This document shows positions 24,061 through 46,046 of a stretch of 64,000 bases of DNA, in pieces. Position 1 is the stretch's first letter. Each line of letters opens with the position of its first letter. Made by a program: the position numbers and the translations under genes. Below the pieces are notes generated by a model. It did no database searches and was not told the origin of the DNA. It worked only from the letters and a program-made list of their open reading frames with translations. Source of the DNA: Microbacterium saperdae (lineage in GTDB: Bacteria > Actinomycetota > Actinomycetes > Actinomycetales > Microbacteriaceae); contig NZ_VFOX01000001.1 in the NCBI RefSeq assembly GCF_006716345.1, forward strand, positions 1,054,001 through 1,118,000. Reading direction: 5' to 3'.

Positions 24061-24090
24061 GTGGACTCGTCGCTTCGCTAGACTGCGAGC

Positions 24091-24168
24091 AGTGACACGG
24101 GGTGCCGCGACCGCGGCTGAGAACAGACCCGTCGAACCTGATCTAGTTCGTACTAGCGAAGGGATGTC
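24091..24168 (+). promoter_or_regulatory. TPP riboswitch (THI element)
   Basis: Conserved thiamine pyrophosphate aptamer blocks are present in order: ACACGGGGTGCC, CTGAGA, GACCCGTCGAACCTGATC and TAGCGAAGGGA. TAGACT at 24079-24084 is the likely -10, putting the transcript start at the first aptamer base. The last block contains the AAGGGA ribosome site of thiM (24159-24164), so TPP binding would block translation directly. Controls thiM and the thiED-tenA fusion. Confidence 0.95.
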
Positions 24169-24171
24169 GCA

Positions 24172-25020
24172 TTGAGCGATCGTCTGCGTCCATCGTCCGA
24201 ATCCTCCGTCGTGTCCGAGGCGGTGGTGCTGCTCGAGAGACTGCGAGCCGCCCCGCCGTTGACGCACTGCATCACCAACGCGGTCGTCACCGGCTTCACC
24301 GCGAATGTGCTCCTCGCCACCGGCGCCGCCCCCGCGATGGTCGACATCGTGGGGGAGAGCGGCATGTTCGCCGGCATCGCCTCCGGGGTGCTGATCAACC
24401 TCGGCACTCCAACCCCTGAGCAGCAGGCCGCGAGCCGGGAAGCGGCGGAGGGAGCAACGGCCGCCGGGACACCCTGGGTGCTCGACCCGGTGGCGATCGG
24501 CGCGCTGCCCGTGCGCACGGCTCTGGCGCAGGAGCTCGTGGCGCTTCGCCCCACCGCCGTGCGGGGCAATGCGTCCGAGATCCTCGCGCTCGCCGGACTC
24601 AGCGGCGGCGGCCGAGGTGTGGACGCCACCGACAGCACAGAGGCGGCAGCCGATGCGGCCACAGCGCTGGCCCAGCGGTACGGCAGCGTGGTCGCGGTCT
24701 CCGGCCCCGTCGACCTGCTCACCGACGGGGAACGCGTGGTCCGCATCGCGAACGGCGATCCGCTGCTCACGCTCGTCACCGGCGGTGGTTGCGCGTTGGG
24801 CGCCGTGATGGCGGCATTCCTCGGCGCTGCGCGCGGCACCGGCATCTCCGCACTCAGTGCCGTCGCCGCTGCCAGCCTCGTGTACACGATCGCCGCCGAA
24901 CGTGCGGCCGCCCTGTCCGCCGGTCCCGGCAGCTTCGCCGTCGCCCTGCTCGATGCCCTTGCGAGCGTGCAGCCGGACGACCTGGCGGCCGCGGCGCGCG
25001 TCGAGGAGAGCATCCGATGA
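24172..25020 (+). CDS. thiM: Hydroxyethylthiazole kinase
   Basis: 282-residue ThiM, phosphorylating the thiazole alcohol for thiamine salvage. Family motifs: [63 protein letters not shown] and [17 protein letters not shown] with the catalytic Cys. A TTG start at 24172 is supported by AAGGGA 7 bases upstream; the ATG at 24164 is out of frame and ends after three codons, overlapping this TTG. The stop is overlapped by the next gene (ATGA). Confidence 0.93.
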
Positions 25021-27167
25021 GCGCGGATCTCTCGCTCTACCTCGTCACCGACGCGGCGCTGTGCGGCCCGCGCGGTGTGGTCGACACCGTCCGGCAGGCA
25101 GTCGACGGCGGCGTGCGCATCGTGCAGCTCCGCGAGAAGCATGCGTCGGACGGGGAGGTCGTGGAGCAGCTGCTGGCCCTGTCGGCAGCGATCGACGGTC
25201 GGGCGCTGCTCGTCGTGAACGACCGCCTGGATGCGGCACTCGAGGCGCGACGTCGCGGAGCCCGGGTCGACGGCGTGCACCTCGGCCAGGGCGATGCCTC
25301 GGTGCTGCGGGCGCGGCAAGAGCTCGGACCCGACGCGCTGATCGGGCTCACCGCGAACGCTCCGGAGCACCTCGCGGCCGTCCGCGCACTTCCGGTCGGC
25401 ACCGTCGACTACCTCGGGGTCGGCGTGATCCGTCCCACGCTCACCAAACCGGATCATCCGCCGGCCCTCGGGATCGAGGGGTTCCGGGAGTTTGTGGCCG
25501 AGAGCCCGCTGCCGTGTGTCGCGATCGGCGGCGTCGGCATCGATGACACCGAGCCGCTGCGCGCGGCAGGAGCGGTCGGGATCGCGGTGGTCTCCGCACT
25601 CTGCGCGGCCGACGATCCGGCGGCCGCGGCGAGGGACTTCCGTCGGCGCTGGCAGATGGCCTCGGTGCCGCGCGTGCTCACGATCGCCGGCAGCGATCCC
25701 TCCGGGGGTGCCGGCATCCAGGCCGATCTCAAGTCGATCGCCGCCAACGGGGGATACGGCATGGCAGCGATCGCCGCGTTGACGGTGCAGAACACCCGCG
25801 GCGTGAGCGCGATCCATGTCCCGCCGGCGGCCTTCCTGCGGCAGCAGCTCGACGCGTTGTCGGATGACATCGTCGTCGACGCGGTCAAGATCGGGATGCT
25901 CGCAGATGCCGAGGTCGTGCGCACCGTGATCGGGTGGCTCGACGCCGTGCATCCTCCGATCGTCGTGGTCGACCCCGTCATGGTCGCCACGAGTGGTGAT
26001 CGACTCCTCGACACGGCGGCGGAGTCCGCTCTGCGGGCACTGCTCGAACGCGCCGATGTCGTGACCCCGAACCTCGCGGAGCTCGCGGTGCTGGTGGGCA
26101 GGAACATCGCCGACTGGTCCGATGCGCTCGCCGCAGCGGAGGAGCTCTCTGCGCAGGTCGGCGCGGCGGTGCTCGTGAAGGGTGGCCACCTCGAGGGCGC
26201 CGATGCGCCGGATGCCCTCATCGACGCGGCAGCAGGGATCCGCCAGGACTACCCGGGTGCACGCATCGACACCGCGAACACCCATGGCACCGGATGCTCG
26301 CTGTCCTCCGCGATCGCGACGCTGCTGGCGCGGGGTCAGGATCCCGTGCAGGCCGTGTCCGCGGCACGCGCCTGGTTGCGCGAGTCGTTGCGGGCGGGCG
26401 GTGCGCTCGACGTCGGACGCGGCCACGGTCCCATCCACCATTTCGCGGGACTCTGGACCCGCGGCGGGCTGACCACGCGTCCGACGGCTGCCGAGGTGGC
26501 CGCCGAGTGGTGGGACGACATCCGCGAGACCAGAGACGAGATCGACGCGCTGCCCTTCATCCGTGCGCTCGCCGACGGCACGTTGCGGCAGGAACCCTTC
26601 GTCTTCTACCTCGCGCAGGATGCGCTCTACCTGCGCGAATACGCCCGCGTGCTGGCGGAGGCGGCGCGGCTGGCCCCGACCGCGGCAGAGCAGGCGTTCT
26701 GGGCGCAGTCCGCGCACGGCTCGATCGTCGGCGAGCTCGAACTGCACGCCTCCTGGCTCACTCCGGCACAGGGGGTCACGGCGGCCACGTTCTCGGCGGT
26801 GCCGGCGCCGGCCACGGTGGCGTACCTCGATCACCTGCGCGCCACGGCCTTCGACGGACGGTACCCCGAGCTGATCGCCGCGATCCTGCCGTGCTTCTGG
26901 CTGTACACCGACCTCGGTGAGCGGCTGCGTGACGGCGCATTCGGAACCCTCCCGCAGGATCCGGAACACCCCTACGCCTCGTGGCTCGCGACGTACGCCG
27001 ATCCGGCCTTCGCTGAGGCGACGGCTCAGGCCATCGTCCACGTGACCGAGGCCGCGGCCGGGGCGGACGATGAGACACGCGCCCGCATGCGGCGGGCGTT
27101 CACGTTGTCCAGCACACATGAGCGCGCCTTCTTCGCCGCGCCGGGGAGCACGCACGCCGCCACATGA
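25017..27167 (+). CDS. thiED: Trifunctional ThiE-ThiD-TenA thiamine protein
   Basis: 716 residues holding three enzymes in one chain. Residues 1-212: thiamine-phosphate synthase ([45 protein letters not shown]). Residues 213-480: hydroxymethylpyrimidine(-phosphate) kinase ([59 protein letters not shown]). Residues 490-716: TenA aminopyrimidine hydrolase with the Asp in YLAQDALYL, the active-site Cys in [13 protein letters not shown] and the Glu in THERAFF. Together they make thiamine phosphate from salvaged pyrimidine and thiazole. Spacing shows no frameshift between modules. ThiE-ThiD and ThiD-TenA fusions are each known; all three together are less common. Confidence 0.93.
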
Positions 27168-27177
27168 CGGAGCAGAT

Positions 27178-27343
27178 TTGCGGATGCCGTCGCGGGCGCG
27201 CTATCGTCGCGGCATGCCTTCGGCTGCATCCGCTTCTCTGACGCTCGTTCCGAGCGTCGTCGTGGTGCGCCGACGCCGGGGCGACCGCCGACTTTAGGCG
27301 ACCCTGCGCTCCTGCCTGCCGGCGGTCGAGTGCCGGTGTCGCC
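27178..27343 (+). promoter_or_regulatory. Candidate arginine attenuator: promoter, leader ORF and alternative RNA stems before argC
   Basis: TTGCGG (27178-27183), an 18-base gap and TATCGT (27202-27207) form a promoter whose start would coincide with the leader ATG at 27214. Pairings: GACGCTCG-ttc-CGAGCGTC (27240-27258); GGCGAC occurs twice (27280-27285 within the Arg codons and 27297-27302 at the stop codon) and either copy can pair with GTCGCC (27338-27343); ACCGCCG (27284-27290) can pair with CGGCGGT (27320-27326), competing with CCGGC-N8-GCCGG (27319-27336). Mutually exclusive stems with one arm inside Arg codons fit attenuation. No U-run is visible, so the mechanism is unproven. Confidence 0.5.
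27214..27297 (+). CDS. Arg-rich leader peptide (27 residues) upstream of argC
   Basis: ATG 27214 lies 6 bases after TATCGT, so a leaderless short ORF is likely. It has 27 codons; the last nine residues are RRRRGDRRL, giving six Arg codons (CGC, CGA, CGC, CGG, then CGC, CGA) just before a TAG stop. It lies 84 bases upstream of the arginine synthesis operon. A run of codons for the end product immediately before an amino-acid operon is the hallmark of ribosome-stalling leader peptides. In a 70% GC genome Arg runs arise by chance, so this is a strong hypothesis, not proof. Confidence 0.5.
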   Translation: MPSAASASLTLVPSVVVVRRRRGDRRL

Positions 27344-27380
27344 GCCTCGGCCACCCGACCCCGACCGTTAAGGTAGAAAC

Positions 27381-28436
27381 ATGACGTATTCCGTCGCCGT
27401 CTCCGGCGCATCCGGCTACGCAGGCGGCGAGATTCTGCGCCTCCTCGCCAGTCATCCCGACATCGAGATCCGCACCGTCACCGCGCATTCGAACGCGGGA
27501 CAGCCGCTGATCCAGCACCAGCCGCACCTGCGCTCGCTCGCGGGGCTGACGCTGCAGGACACGACCCCCGAGATCCTGGCCGGGCACGACATCGTGTTCC
27601 TGGCTCTGCCGCACGGGCAATCCGGGCAGTACACGGATGCGCTCGGCGACACCCCTCTCGTGATCGACGCGGGGGCCGACCATCGGCTGACCTCGGAGAC
27701 CGCCTGGGACGCGTTCTACGGCGGAGCCTTCCACGAACCGTGGACCTACGGCGTGCCCGAGCTGCTGGTCGGCGGCGCGAAGCAGCGCGAAGCCCTCCGC
27801 GGCGCCACACGGATCGCCGCACCCGGCTGCAACGCCTCCACCGTCAGCTTGAGCCTGGTGCCCGGAGTCGCGGCCGGAGTGATCGATCCGGGCGACATCG
27901 TCTCGGTGCTCGCGGTCGGGCCCTCGGGAGCGGGCAAGAGCCTGAAGTCGAACCTCCTCGCCAGCGAGATCCTCGGTACCGCCAACCCGTATGCGGTCGG
28001 CGGTACGCATCGGCACATCCCGGAGATCCGGCAGGCGCTCGCCGCGGCGACAGGAACCGGGGCGCCTGACAGCATCCGCATCTCCTTCACCCCGGTGCTC
28101 GTGCCGATGTCGCGGGGCATCCTCGCCACCTCGACGGCACCGATCGTCGCAGGTGTCACCGACGCCGAGATCCGCGAGGCCTGGGAGAGCGCGTACGACG
28201 GCGAGACCTTCGTGCACCTGCTGCCCGAAGGCAGCTTCCCGCGCACCGCCGACGTGCTCGGCGCCAACACGGCGCTGATCGGTCTGGCGATCGACCGCGC
28301 CGCCAACCGCGTCACCGTCGTCACCGCCGTCGACAACCTCGTCAAGGGAACCGCCGGCGCCGCCATCCAGTCCATGAACATCGCGCTCGGGCTTCCCGAG
28401 GACCGCGCCCTCTCAATCAACGGAGTCGCACCATGA
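27381..28436 (+). CDS. argC: N-acetyl-gamma-glutamyl-phosphate reductase
   Basis: 351-residue ArgC, reducing N-acetylglutamyl phosphate to the semialdehyde with NADPH. Features: nucleotide loop [35 protein letters not shown], catalytic Cys150 in [14 protein letters not shown], and [14 protein letters not shown] His motif. First gene of argCJBDFH. ATG 27381 is 6 bases after TAAGGT, which can act as a leaderless -10, while AAGG within it could also serve as a ribosome site on a longer leader transcript. The stop overlaps a 13-codon ORF. Confidence 0.96.
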
Positions 28437-40776: not shown

Positions 40777-45820
<5,044 letters not shown>

Positions 45821-45928
45821 CACACCGTTTGTTGGTGCTACGCGTCCACTGAGTGGTTCTCGATGTACGGTCGAGAACCGCATAACAACAATGACTTTGT
45901 TATGTGTTTGATTGAAACATCAATAGTG

Positions 45929-46046
45929 TTTCGGCGGCCATAGCGTGAGGGAAACGCCCGGTTACATTCCGAACCCGGAAGCTAAGCCTCACAGCGCCGA
46001 TGGTACTGCAGGGGGGACCCTGTGGGAGAGTAGGACACCGCCGGAC
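45929..46046 (+). rRNA. rrf: 5S ribosomal RNA
   Basis: About 117 bases: TTCGGCGGCCATAGCG at the 5' end, central CCGAACCCGGAAGCTAAG and 3' GACACCGCCGGACT, which pairs with the start. Ends estimated. Bases 45821-45928 between 23S and 5S carry only a small hairpin (GGTTCTCGATGTACGGTCGAGAACC near 45854) that may be a processing site. Confidence 0.95.

Follow-up and report, generated by a model that had tools for sequence, protein, structure and literature searches.

In classical leader attenuators, such as those of the trp, his and leu operons and of trp in Corynebacterium and Streptomyces (PMC1262725), the position of a ribosome on cognate codons picks the fold of the RNA. The LEU element, found before leuA of Actinobacteria, carries a run of leucine codons that has been proposed to pair with the Shine–Dalgarno (SD) sequence of leuA (Seliverstov et al. 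2005, PMC1262725). The same study, in the part available to us, has Leifsonia xyli among its genomes and reports no conserved RNA structure before the arginine operons of Actinobacteria. Leaders with arginine codons have been shown experimentally for Salmonella speF (PMC6386406) and Staphylococcus aureus rbfL (PMC13009471), neither of which, by the available portions of those papers, governs arginine synthesis. Here we describe a candidate arginine-codon leader before argC of Microbacterium saperdae (Microbacteriaceae), analysed within a 64,000-nucleotide (nt) stretch of contig NZ_VFOX01000001.1 (positions 1,054,001 to 1,118,000; hereafter, the window). A search of the open-licence full-text literature found no arginine biosynthesis operon under a leader-peptide attenuator.

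The argC gene heads the operon argC-argJ-argB-argD-argF-argH, which runs to 34082 and whose proteins score above the cut-offs of NCBIfam TIGR01850, NF003802, TIGR00761, NF002874, NF001986 and TIGR00838. Its ATG lies 83 nt past the stop codon of a leader open reading frame (ORF) whose C-terminal end, directly before the stop, is VVVVRRRRGDRRL. The region thus has the make-up of a leader attenuator in the broad sense: between a promoter and the first gene lies a short ORF in which codons for the amino acid that the operon makes form a run. Comparison with related genomes indicates that the leader is very probably arginine-sensing. We put a probability of roughly 0.68 on the fuller reading, in which an arginine-codon leader attenuator stands in place of the repressor ArgR and release of the SD for argC translation is the output; the comparisons support the sensing step well, but not the output step. 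A sequence-only reading of the window had proposed an arginine attenuator here from the promoter, the ORF, GGCGAC at 27280 and 27297, GTCGCC at 27338, ACCGCCG at 27284, CGGCGGT at 27320 and CCGGC-N8-GCCGG at 27319-27336. All of these strings lie at those positions, and the proposal is supported with changes to its stems and its output. The features of the region are as follows.

27178-27207, plus strand: candidate leader promoter, TTGCGG (27178-27183), an 18-nt gap and TATCGT (27202-27207)
27214-27297, plus strand: leader ORF MPSAASASLTLVPSVVVVRRRRGDRRL, 27 codons, from ATG at 27214 to the stop codon TAG at 27295-27297
27240-27258, plus strand: perfect hairpin within the leader ORF, 5′ of the arginine codons, GACGCTCG (27240-27247) with CGAGCGTC (27251-27258)
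27268-27279, plus strand: run of four arginine codons, CGC CGA CGC CGG, the proposed stall site
27269-27283, plus strand: arginine-codon strand, predicted to pair through 27269-27275 with 27366-27374 (part of the SD) and through 27277-27283 with 27356-27363
27286-27291, plus strand: two further arginine codons, CGC CGA, followed by Leu and the stop
27297-27302, plus strand: 5′ arm of stem S2, GGCGAC, beginning in the leader stop codon
27312-27328, plus strand: alternative SD-blocking strand, predicted, when the S2 5′ arm is covered, to pair through 27312-27317 with 27371-27376 and through 27321-27328 with 27362-27369
27338-27343, plus strand: 3′ arm of S2, GTCGCC, from RNAalifold and the swap test
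27356-27376, plus strand: argC ribosome-binding region, with the SD AAGG at 27370-27373
27381-28436, plus strand: argC, first gene of the operon

By analogy, the LEU element appears to be the closest relative in layout. Both have a codon run proposed to pair with the first gene's SD (here according to the window fold and co-variation, with the register not fixed), and the available part of PMC1262725 names no terminator for the LEU element, which has leucine codons and a pseudoknot where this locus has arginine codons and nested stems. The classical attenuators share the proposed principle, selection of the RNA fold by ribosome position, but differ in that this locus has an expected leaderless start, predicted SD pairing and no terminator hairpin with a U-run; no intrinsic terminator-like site was found in 26900-27600, so the locus falls outside the classical type. 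The sequence-only reading had likewise seen no U-run after its stem. In Salmonella speF, orf34 detects arginine through its arginine codons, the ribosome-binding site of the controlled gene is paired by a strand close to the leader stop, and Rho is involved, although that leader is long and SD-led and controls ornithine decarboxylase (PMC6386406). S. aureus rbfL likewise combines arginine codons, ribosome pausing and a translational output, but there the paused ribosome blocks the ribosome-binding site of rbf, a biofilm regulator, and arginine shortage lowers expression (PMC13009471). The cys operons of Mycobacterium have a cognate codon run near the stop and no terminator hairpin; their codons are for cysteine, and no conserved stems are reported in the part of PMC1262725 available to us. 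The kind of device is known; new are the operon, the leaderless start, the pairing of arginine codons with the SD and the apparent replacement of ArgR.

The leader ORF is conserved well beyond the window. We defined leaders by a single rule for the 300 bases preceding argC, which demands TANNNT, a spacing of 4-8 nt, an ATG or GTG start, 14-60 codons and at least four arginines within eight residues. It selects 81 of the 82 sequences from Microbacterium (all but L073), 53 of 96 sequences from other Microbacteriaceae and none of the 47 sequences that represent other families of the order. Dinucleotide shuffles of the argC upstream regions pass in 0.37 to 0.43% of cases, which, together with the 0/47 controls, rules out chance or composition as the origin of the leader. 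The Microbacterium sample was reduced from 118 loci to 100 distinct sequences of at least 260 nt, and to 82 by thinning at 90% identity, with L026 and L044 (52 nt upstream) dropped; the controls went from 51 loci to 47, L164 and L253 being too short, L250 unaligned and L234 also left out. Counted by genus, the rule finds a leader in 37 of the 70 genera outside Microbacterium, inspection by eye finds a weaker form in 5 and 28 have none. The weaker leaders (L115-L117, L185, L201, L227 and L228) fail the rule and lie outside the 53.

Within these leaders the arginine codons stand out. In the genus, 23% of leader residues are arginine, and in the family 29%, compared with 6.5% in eight ORFs of the window, and the share of CGA among the arginine codons is 163/513 and 97/425, respectively, against 5/169 in the same eight ORFs. 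CGA is a slowly read codon; RNA pairing could be a further cause of its enrichment. In Microbacterium, the third codon before the stop is CGC in 79 of 81 leaders and the second is CGA in 79 of 81, and the distance from the leader stop to argC takes all three phases (25, 32 and 24 sequences). The sequence-only reading, which staked itself on conservation of the ORF, its arginine codons and its stems in relatives, withstands this comparison, S2 being kept as well (see below). The leaders of L006, L013, L017 and L051 contain an additional in-frame stretch of 10 residues (FLSERSESKG-like) before the arginine run, which has the appearance of an inserted short repeat.

Because TATCGT ends six bases before the ATG, the leader transcript is expected to start at 27214 itself, giving a leaderless message. 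This layout recurs among the rule-passing Microbacterium leaders, with TANNNT 6 nt before the ATG in 75 of 81 and 7 nt before it in the other 6, counts for which the rule itself demands a spacing of 4-8 nt. TTG occurs in the −35 zone of 76/81 Microbacterium leaders versus 24/53 leaders of other genera. The promoter put forward by the sequence-only reading is accordingly present as strings and as a recurring −10/ATG layout, but it is not consensus-like, and a sigma-70 scan of 26900-27600 lists no consensus promoter. The hairpin within the ORF may act as a pause or timing hairpin: hairpins scoring at least 6 occur in 64% of the 81 Microbacterium leaders versus 18% of shuffled ones, and in several relatives within the genus the arms vary and stay paired. 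Outside the genus, such hairpins are not above shuffles (14% of 43 family representatives versus 10%).

Two pairings stand out in the RNA. From 33 Microbacterium sequences RNAalifold returned S2 alone, with its first five pairs unbroken in 33/33, two-sided changes at three of eight pairs and a small covariation term (−0.41); elsewhere, L204 (GGCGTCG with CGACGCC) and L190 (GGCGACA with TGTCGCC) are examples of arms that have changed and still pair. A swap test compared complementarity within one leader with that between leaders for 18 region pairs, using 46 family and 35 Microbacterium representatives (for this and the anchored hairpin sets, representatives were kept under a similarity score of 0.72). 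The S2 arms co-vary in both sets (permutation P < 0.0001), and so does the arginine-codon region with the SD region (A:D2; P = 0.0003 in the family, P < 0.0001 in the genus); of the 18 region pairs just these two stand out in both. An all-register scan of the 38 Microbacterium sequences without GACCGTT before the SD ranks GTCTGG with CCAGAC at the top, fully paired in 37% compared with a mean of 21% and a maximum of 34% over 500 permutations. Of the stems in the sequence-only reading, GGCGAC (27297) with GTCGCC (27338) is thus conserved, but ACCGCCG with CGGCGGT and CCGGC-N8-GCCGG are unsupported, lying partly or wholly in a variable loop and appearing in no minimum-energy or consensus fold computed here.

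Other candidate pairings were rejected. The arginine codons with the S2 3′ arm (A:C) give no signal over swapped controls (P = 0.63 and 0.21), and co-variation is lacking for the loop region with the SD (M:D2; P = 0.44 and 0.14), a pairing that is strong in the window. In L122, L137, L168, L176 and L189 we observed a possible second stem between the S2 3′ arm and bases before the SD (for example, GTGGGCG/CGCCCAC), which is exclusive with S2.

ArgR acts on arginine biosynthesis genes, and the sequence-only reading had entered as a caveat that arginine operons are usually under its control. With no ArgR found among the Microbacteriaceae, that caveat becomes a point in favour. Searches that included the window's own genome, and that recovered Corynebacterium glutamicum among the controls, gave no PF01316 match in 149 Microbacterium genomes or in 199 Microbacteriaceae genomes from 85 genera, and no match to the ArgR C-terminal domain PF02863 in 120 family genomes. 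Across the order, 197 of 218 genomes match PF01316, and 197 of 202 outside Microbacteriaceae; of the 21 without a match, 16 are Microbacteriaceae, four others are listed and also lack an argC match, and one is unlisted. It is possible that ArgR has diverged beyond both profiles. The motif TGCAT/ATGCA, which we take to be the half-site of the ARG box, is found within the 60 bases preceding argC in 39/47 controls versus 2/178 family sequences, and in none of the 82 Microbacterium sequences. ArgR and ARG-box-like sites are a feature of other families of the order, and a DNA-binding repressor is unlike the RNA leader described here. Control of argC by ArgR is unsupported, with neither the protein nor half-sites beyond those 2/178 in the family. 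Among control loci of ArgR-bearing families, L155, L157 and L158 have an apparently leaderless argC with a TATAGT-like −10 amid TGCAT/ATGCA half-sites.

As modelled by tools that take no account of pseudoknots, the folds of the window follow the logic of an attenuator with translation as its output. The ribosome-free RNA (27266-27386) folds into one long rod with S2 inside (minimum-energy z = −2.65). With a ribosome on the arginine run (27286-27386), the inner stems are kept and the SD is held in a three-pair helix only (z = −2.92); when the ribosome is instead at the leader stop (27310-27386), S2 is impossible and the SD region is paired (z = −3.19). The SD-blocking alternative fold begun at 27299 has z = −1.55. 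In relatives, masking the arginine strand raises the unpaired probability of the SD region: in the genus this holds for 25 of 35 representatives (P = 0.0035), in the family for 27 of 45 (P = 0.002).

We propose that transcription would start at the leader ATG, with a ribosome loading immediately. When charged arginyl-tRNA is ample, the ribosome would clear the arginine codons and depart, after which these codons (27269-27283) would hold the argC ribosome-binding site (27356-27374); in the window, 27312-27328 may hold the SD region while the ribosome still occupies the stop codon. With the site held, argC would be poorly translated. Under arginine shortage, the ribosome would presumably stall on the arginine run and cover the SD-pairing strand, leaving the stop-codon arm free so that S2 could form (27297-27302 with 27338-27343); the SD would be released and argC probably translated. 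Rho-dependent polarity could add to this translational output.

Several observations weigh against this reading. The gain in SD-region accessibility is small, from 0.45 to 0.51, or about 0.06 in unpaired probability. For the 8-nt SD, the stalled state is more accessible than the at-stop state in 52/81 genus sequences, 17/35 divergent genus sequences and 24/45 family representatives, and more accessible than free RNA in 32/81, 18/35 and 28/45, respectively; under other settings the stalled state exceeds free RNA in 19/35 genus and 34/44 family sequences, again with small differences. For these values, energy models of G+C-rich RNA that omit cotranscriptional folding are a weak judge. S2 and the co-variation of arginine codons with the SD are general among relatives, but the SD-blocking alternative seen in the window is not. 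The swap statistics come from 36 uncorrected tests on related sequences, and the S2 anchors were picked by pairing, so the test leans towards S2, for which RNAalifold serves as the independent check. In the family set only, the S2 3′ arm with the SD region (C:D2) and the pre-arginine region with the arginine codons (P1:A) also score, and the arginine codons with a stretch inside argC (A:E1) are nominally significant (P = 0.044). Among the 51 sequences of the larger Microbacterium clade, no register between arginine codons and SD rises above 4% and none is kept. Finally, the 28 of 70 other genera without a leader also have no ArgR that we could find (for example, L174, L193 and L213), so the device is not required everywhere. 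In genera with neither, argC mostly looks leaderless behind TAGATT-like −10s.

Translational output is favoured over termination because no terminator-like site was found and because the arginine codons co-vary with the argC ribosome-binding region. The main rival for this step keeps the same arginine sensor and moves the output to transcription, with Rho terminating in C-rich RNA unless the stalled ribosome or S2 prevents it. A C-rich stretch does lie between S2 and argC (27345-27365) in a region free of intrinsic terminator-like sites, S2 is conserved, unlike the SD-accessibility switch, which is not general, and the arginine-codon leader of Salmonella speF acts partly through Rho (PMC6386406). 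The arginine codons, however, co-vary with the SD region and not with the C-rich stretch (A:D1), and the SD accompanies the leader and is mostly absent without it; we consider Rho as the output unlikely, though worth keeping in mind.

That association also bears on a reading without arginine sensing, in which the ORF is a bystander or an enhancer and argC is transcribed from a leaderless promoter of its own, starting at 27381. TAAGGT (27369-27374), 6 nt before the argC ATG, fits a −10 as well as containing the SD, and TANNNT at leaderless spacing precedes argC in 124/141 leader-positive family sequences, 26/36 leader-negative relatives and 36/47 controls (for this comparison only, the leader-positive totals of 141 in the family and 60 in other genera include the seven weak leaders). 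The 124 matches arise because TAAGGT contains the SD. An SD-like motif, by comparison, precedes argC in 139/141 leader-positive and 12/36 leader-negative family sequences and in 1/47 controls, and outside the genus 15 of 60 leader-positive sequences have an SD with TANNNT absent, which suggests that it is the SD that is kept. In Microbacterium, 80 of 81 sequences fit both motifs, and a second transcription start at argC is possible there. The co-variation of arginine codons, S2 and SD also speaks against a bystander, as does the confinement of arginine enrichment to the argC operon in a comparison with argG: before argG of the same genus, 0/23 genomes have a leader of this kind, 22/23 have TANNNT 5-7 nt before the ATG and 23/23 lack an SD. 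We regard the bystander reading as improbable. Still less credible is a functional arginine-rich peptide acting in trans. The ORF is conserved, and many Microbacterium leaders (20-43 residues) begin with MPSA or MSSA, but across genera little beyond the arginine block is shared, lengths vary from 18 to 39 residues, the 53 leaders start with ATG (36) or GTG (17), the RNA outside the ORF is conserved too and the ORF has no Pfam match.

By parsimony, leader state changes 15 times on a gene tree of argC with 86 family and 6 outgroup tips, compared with a mean of 25.9 and a minimum of 19 for shuffled states, and leaders occur in both main halves. The tree fits one origin with losses or several gains; its distribution of leaders, with the common S2 core and SD, suggests an old origin with later losses. 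We give even odds to a scenario in which the family ancestor lost ArgR and the ARG boxes and a leaderless translational attenuator took over, as one ancestral leader later lost in some genera; in that scenario the arginine codons would do double duty, as sensor and as the strand sequestering the argC ribosome-binding site. In L169, L170, L191, L194 and L195, loci from some of the genera, argC follows another gene directly with no leader ORF, and the last codons of that gene hold GGCGAC, with a GTCGCC-like arm and an SD-like motif before argC. The end of the preceding gene was tested in L169 only, where it matches PF03147 and the gene is presumably pheT. A gene end of this type may be the source of the leader, or may have taken its place.

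In the window, the leader is the sole leaderless arginine-rich ORF of its class on both strands of the 64 kb, and its argC matches named Microbacterium records up to 92%. Neither argR nor argG is among the operon genes from argC to argH. The gene 5′ of the leader is thiE-thiD-tenA-like; a TPP riboswitch (RF00059, 73.6 bits, 24088-24181) precedes the thiamine genes, whose end lies immediately upstream of the leader, and a complete 16S-23S-5S rRNA operon lies at 40777-46046. A gathering-score Rfam scan of the window gives only the TPP riboswitch and the rRNAs, with no T-box or riboswitch before argC.

If the proposed reading is true, it would explain how a large family could control arginine synthesis without ArgR, and it would offer a natural example of one layer of regulation taking the place of another at a single operon. 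A leaderless message would then serve as a ribosome sensor. The finding would also be relevant to strain engineering, because there would be no repressor gene to remove.
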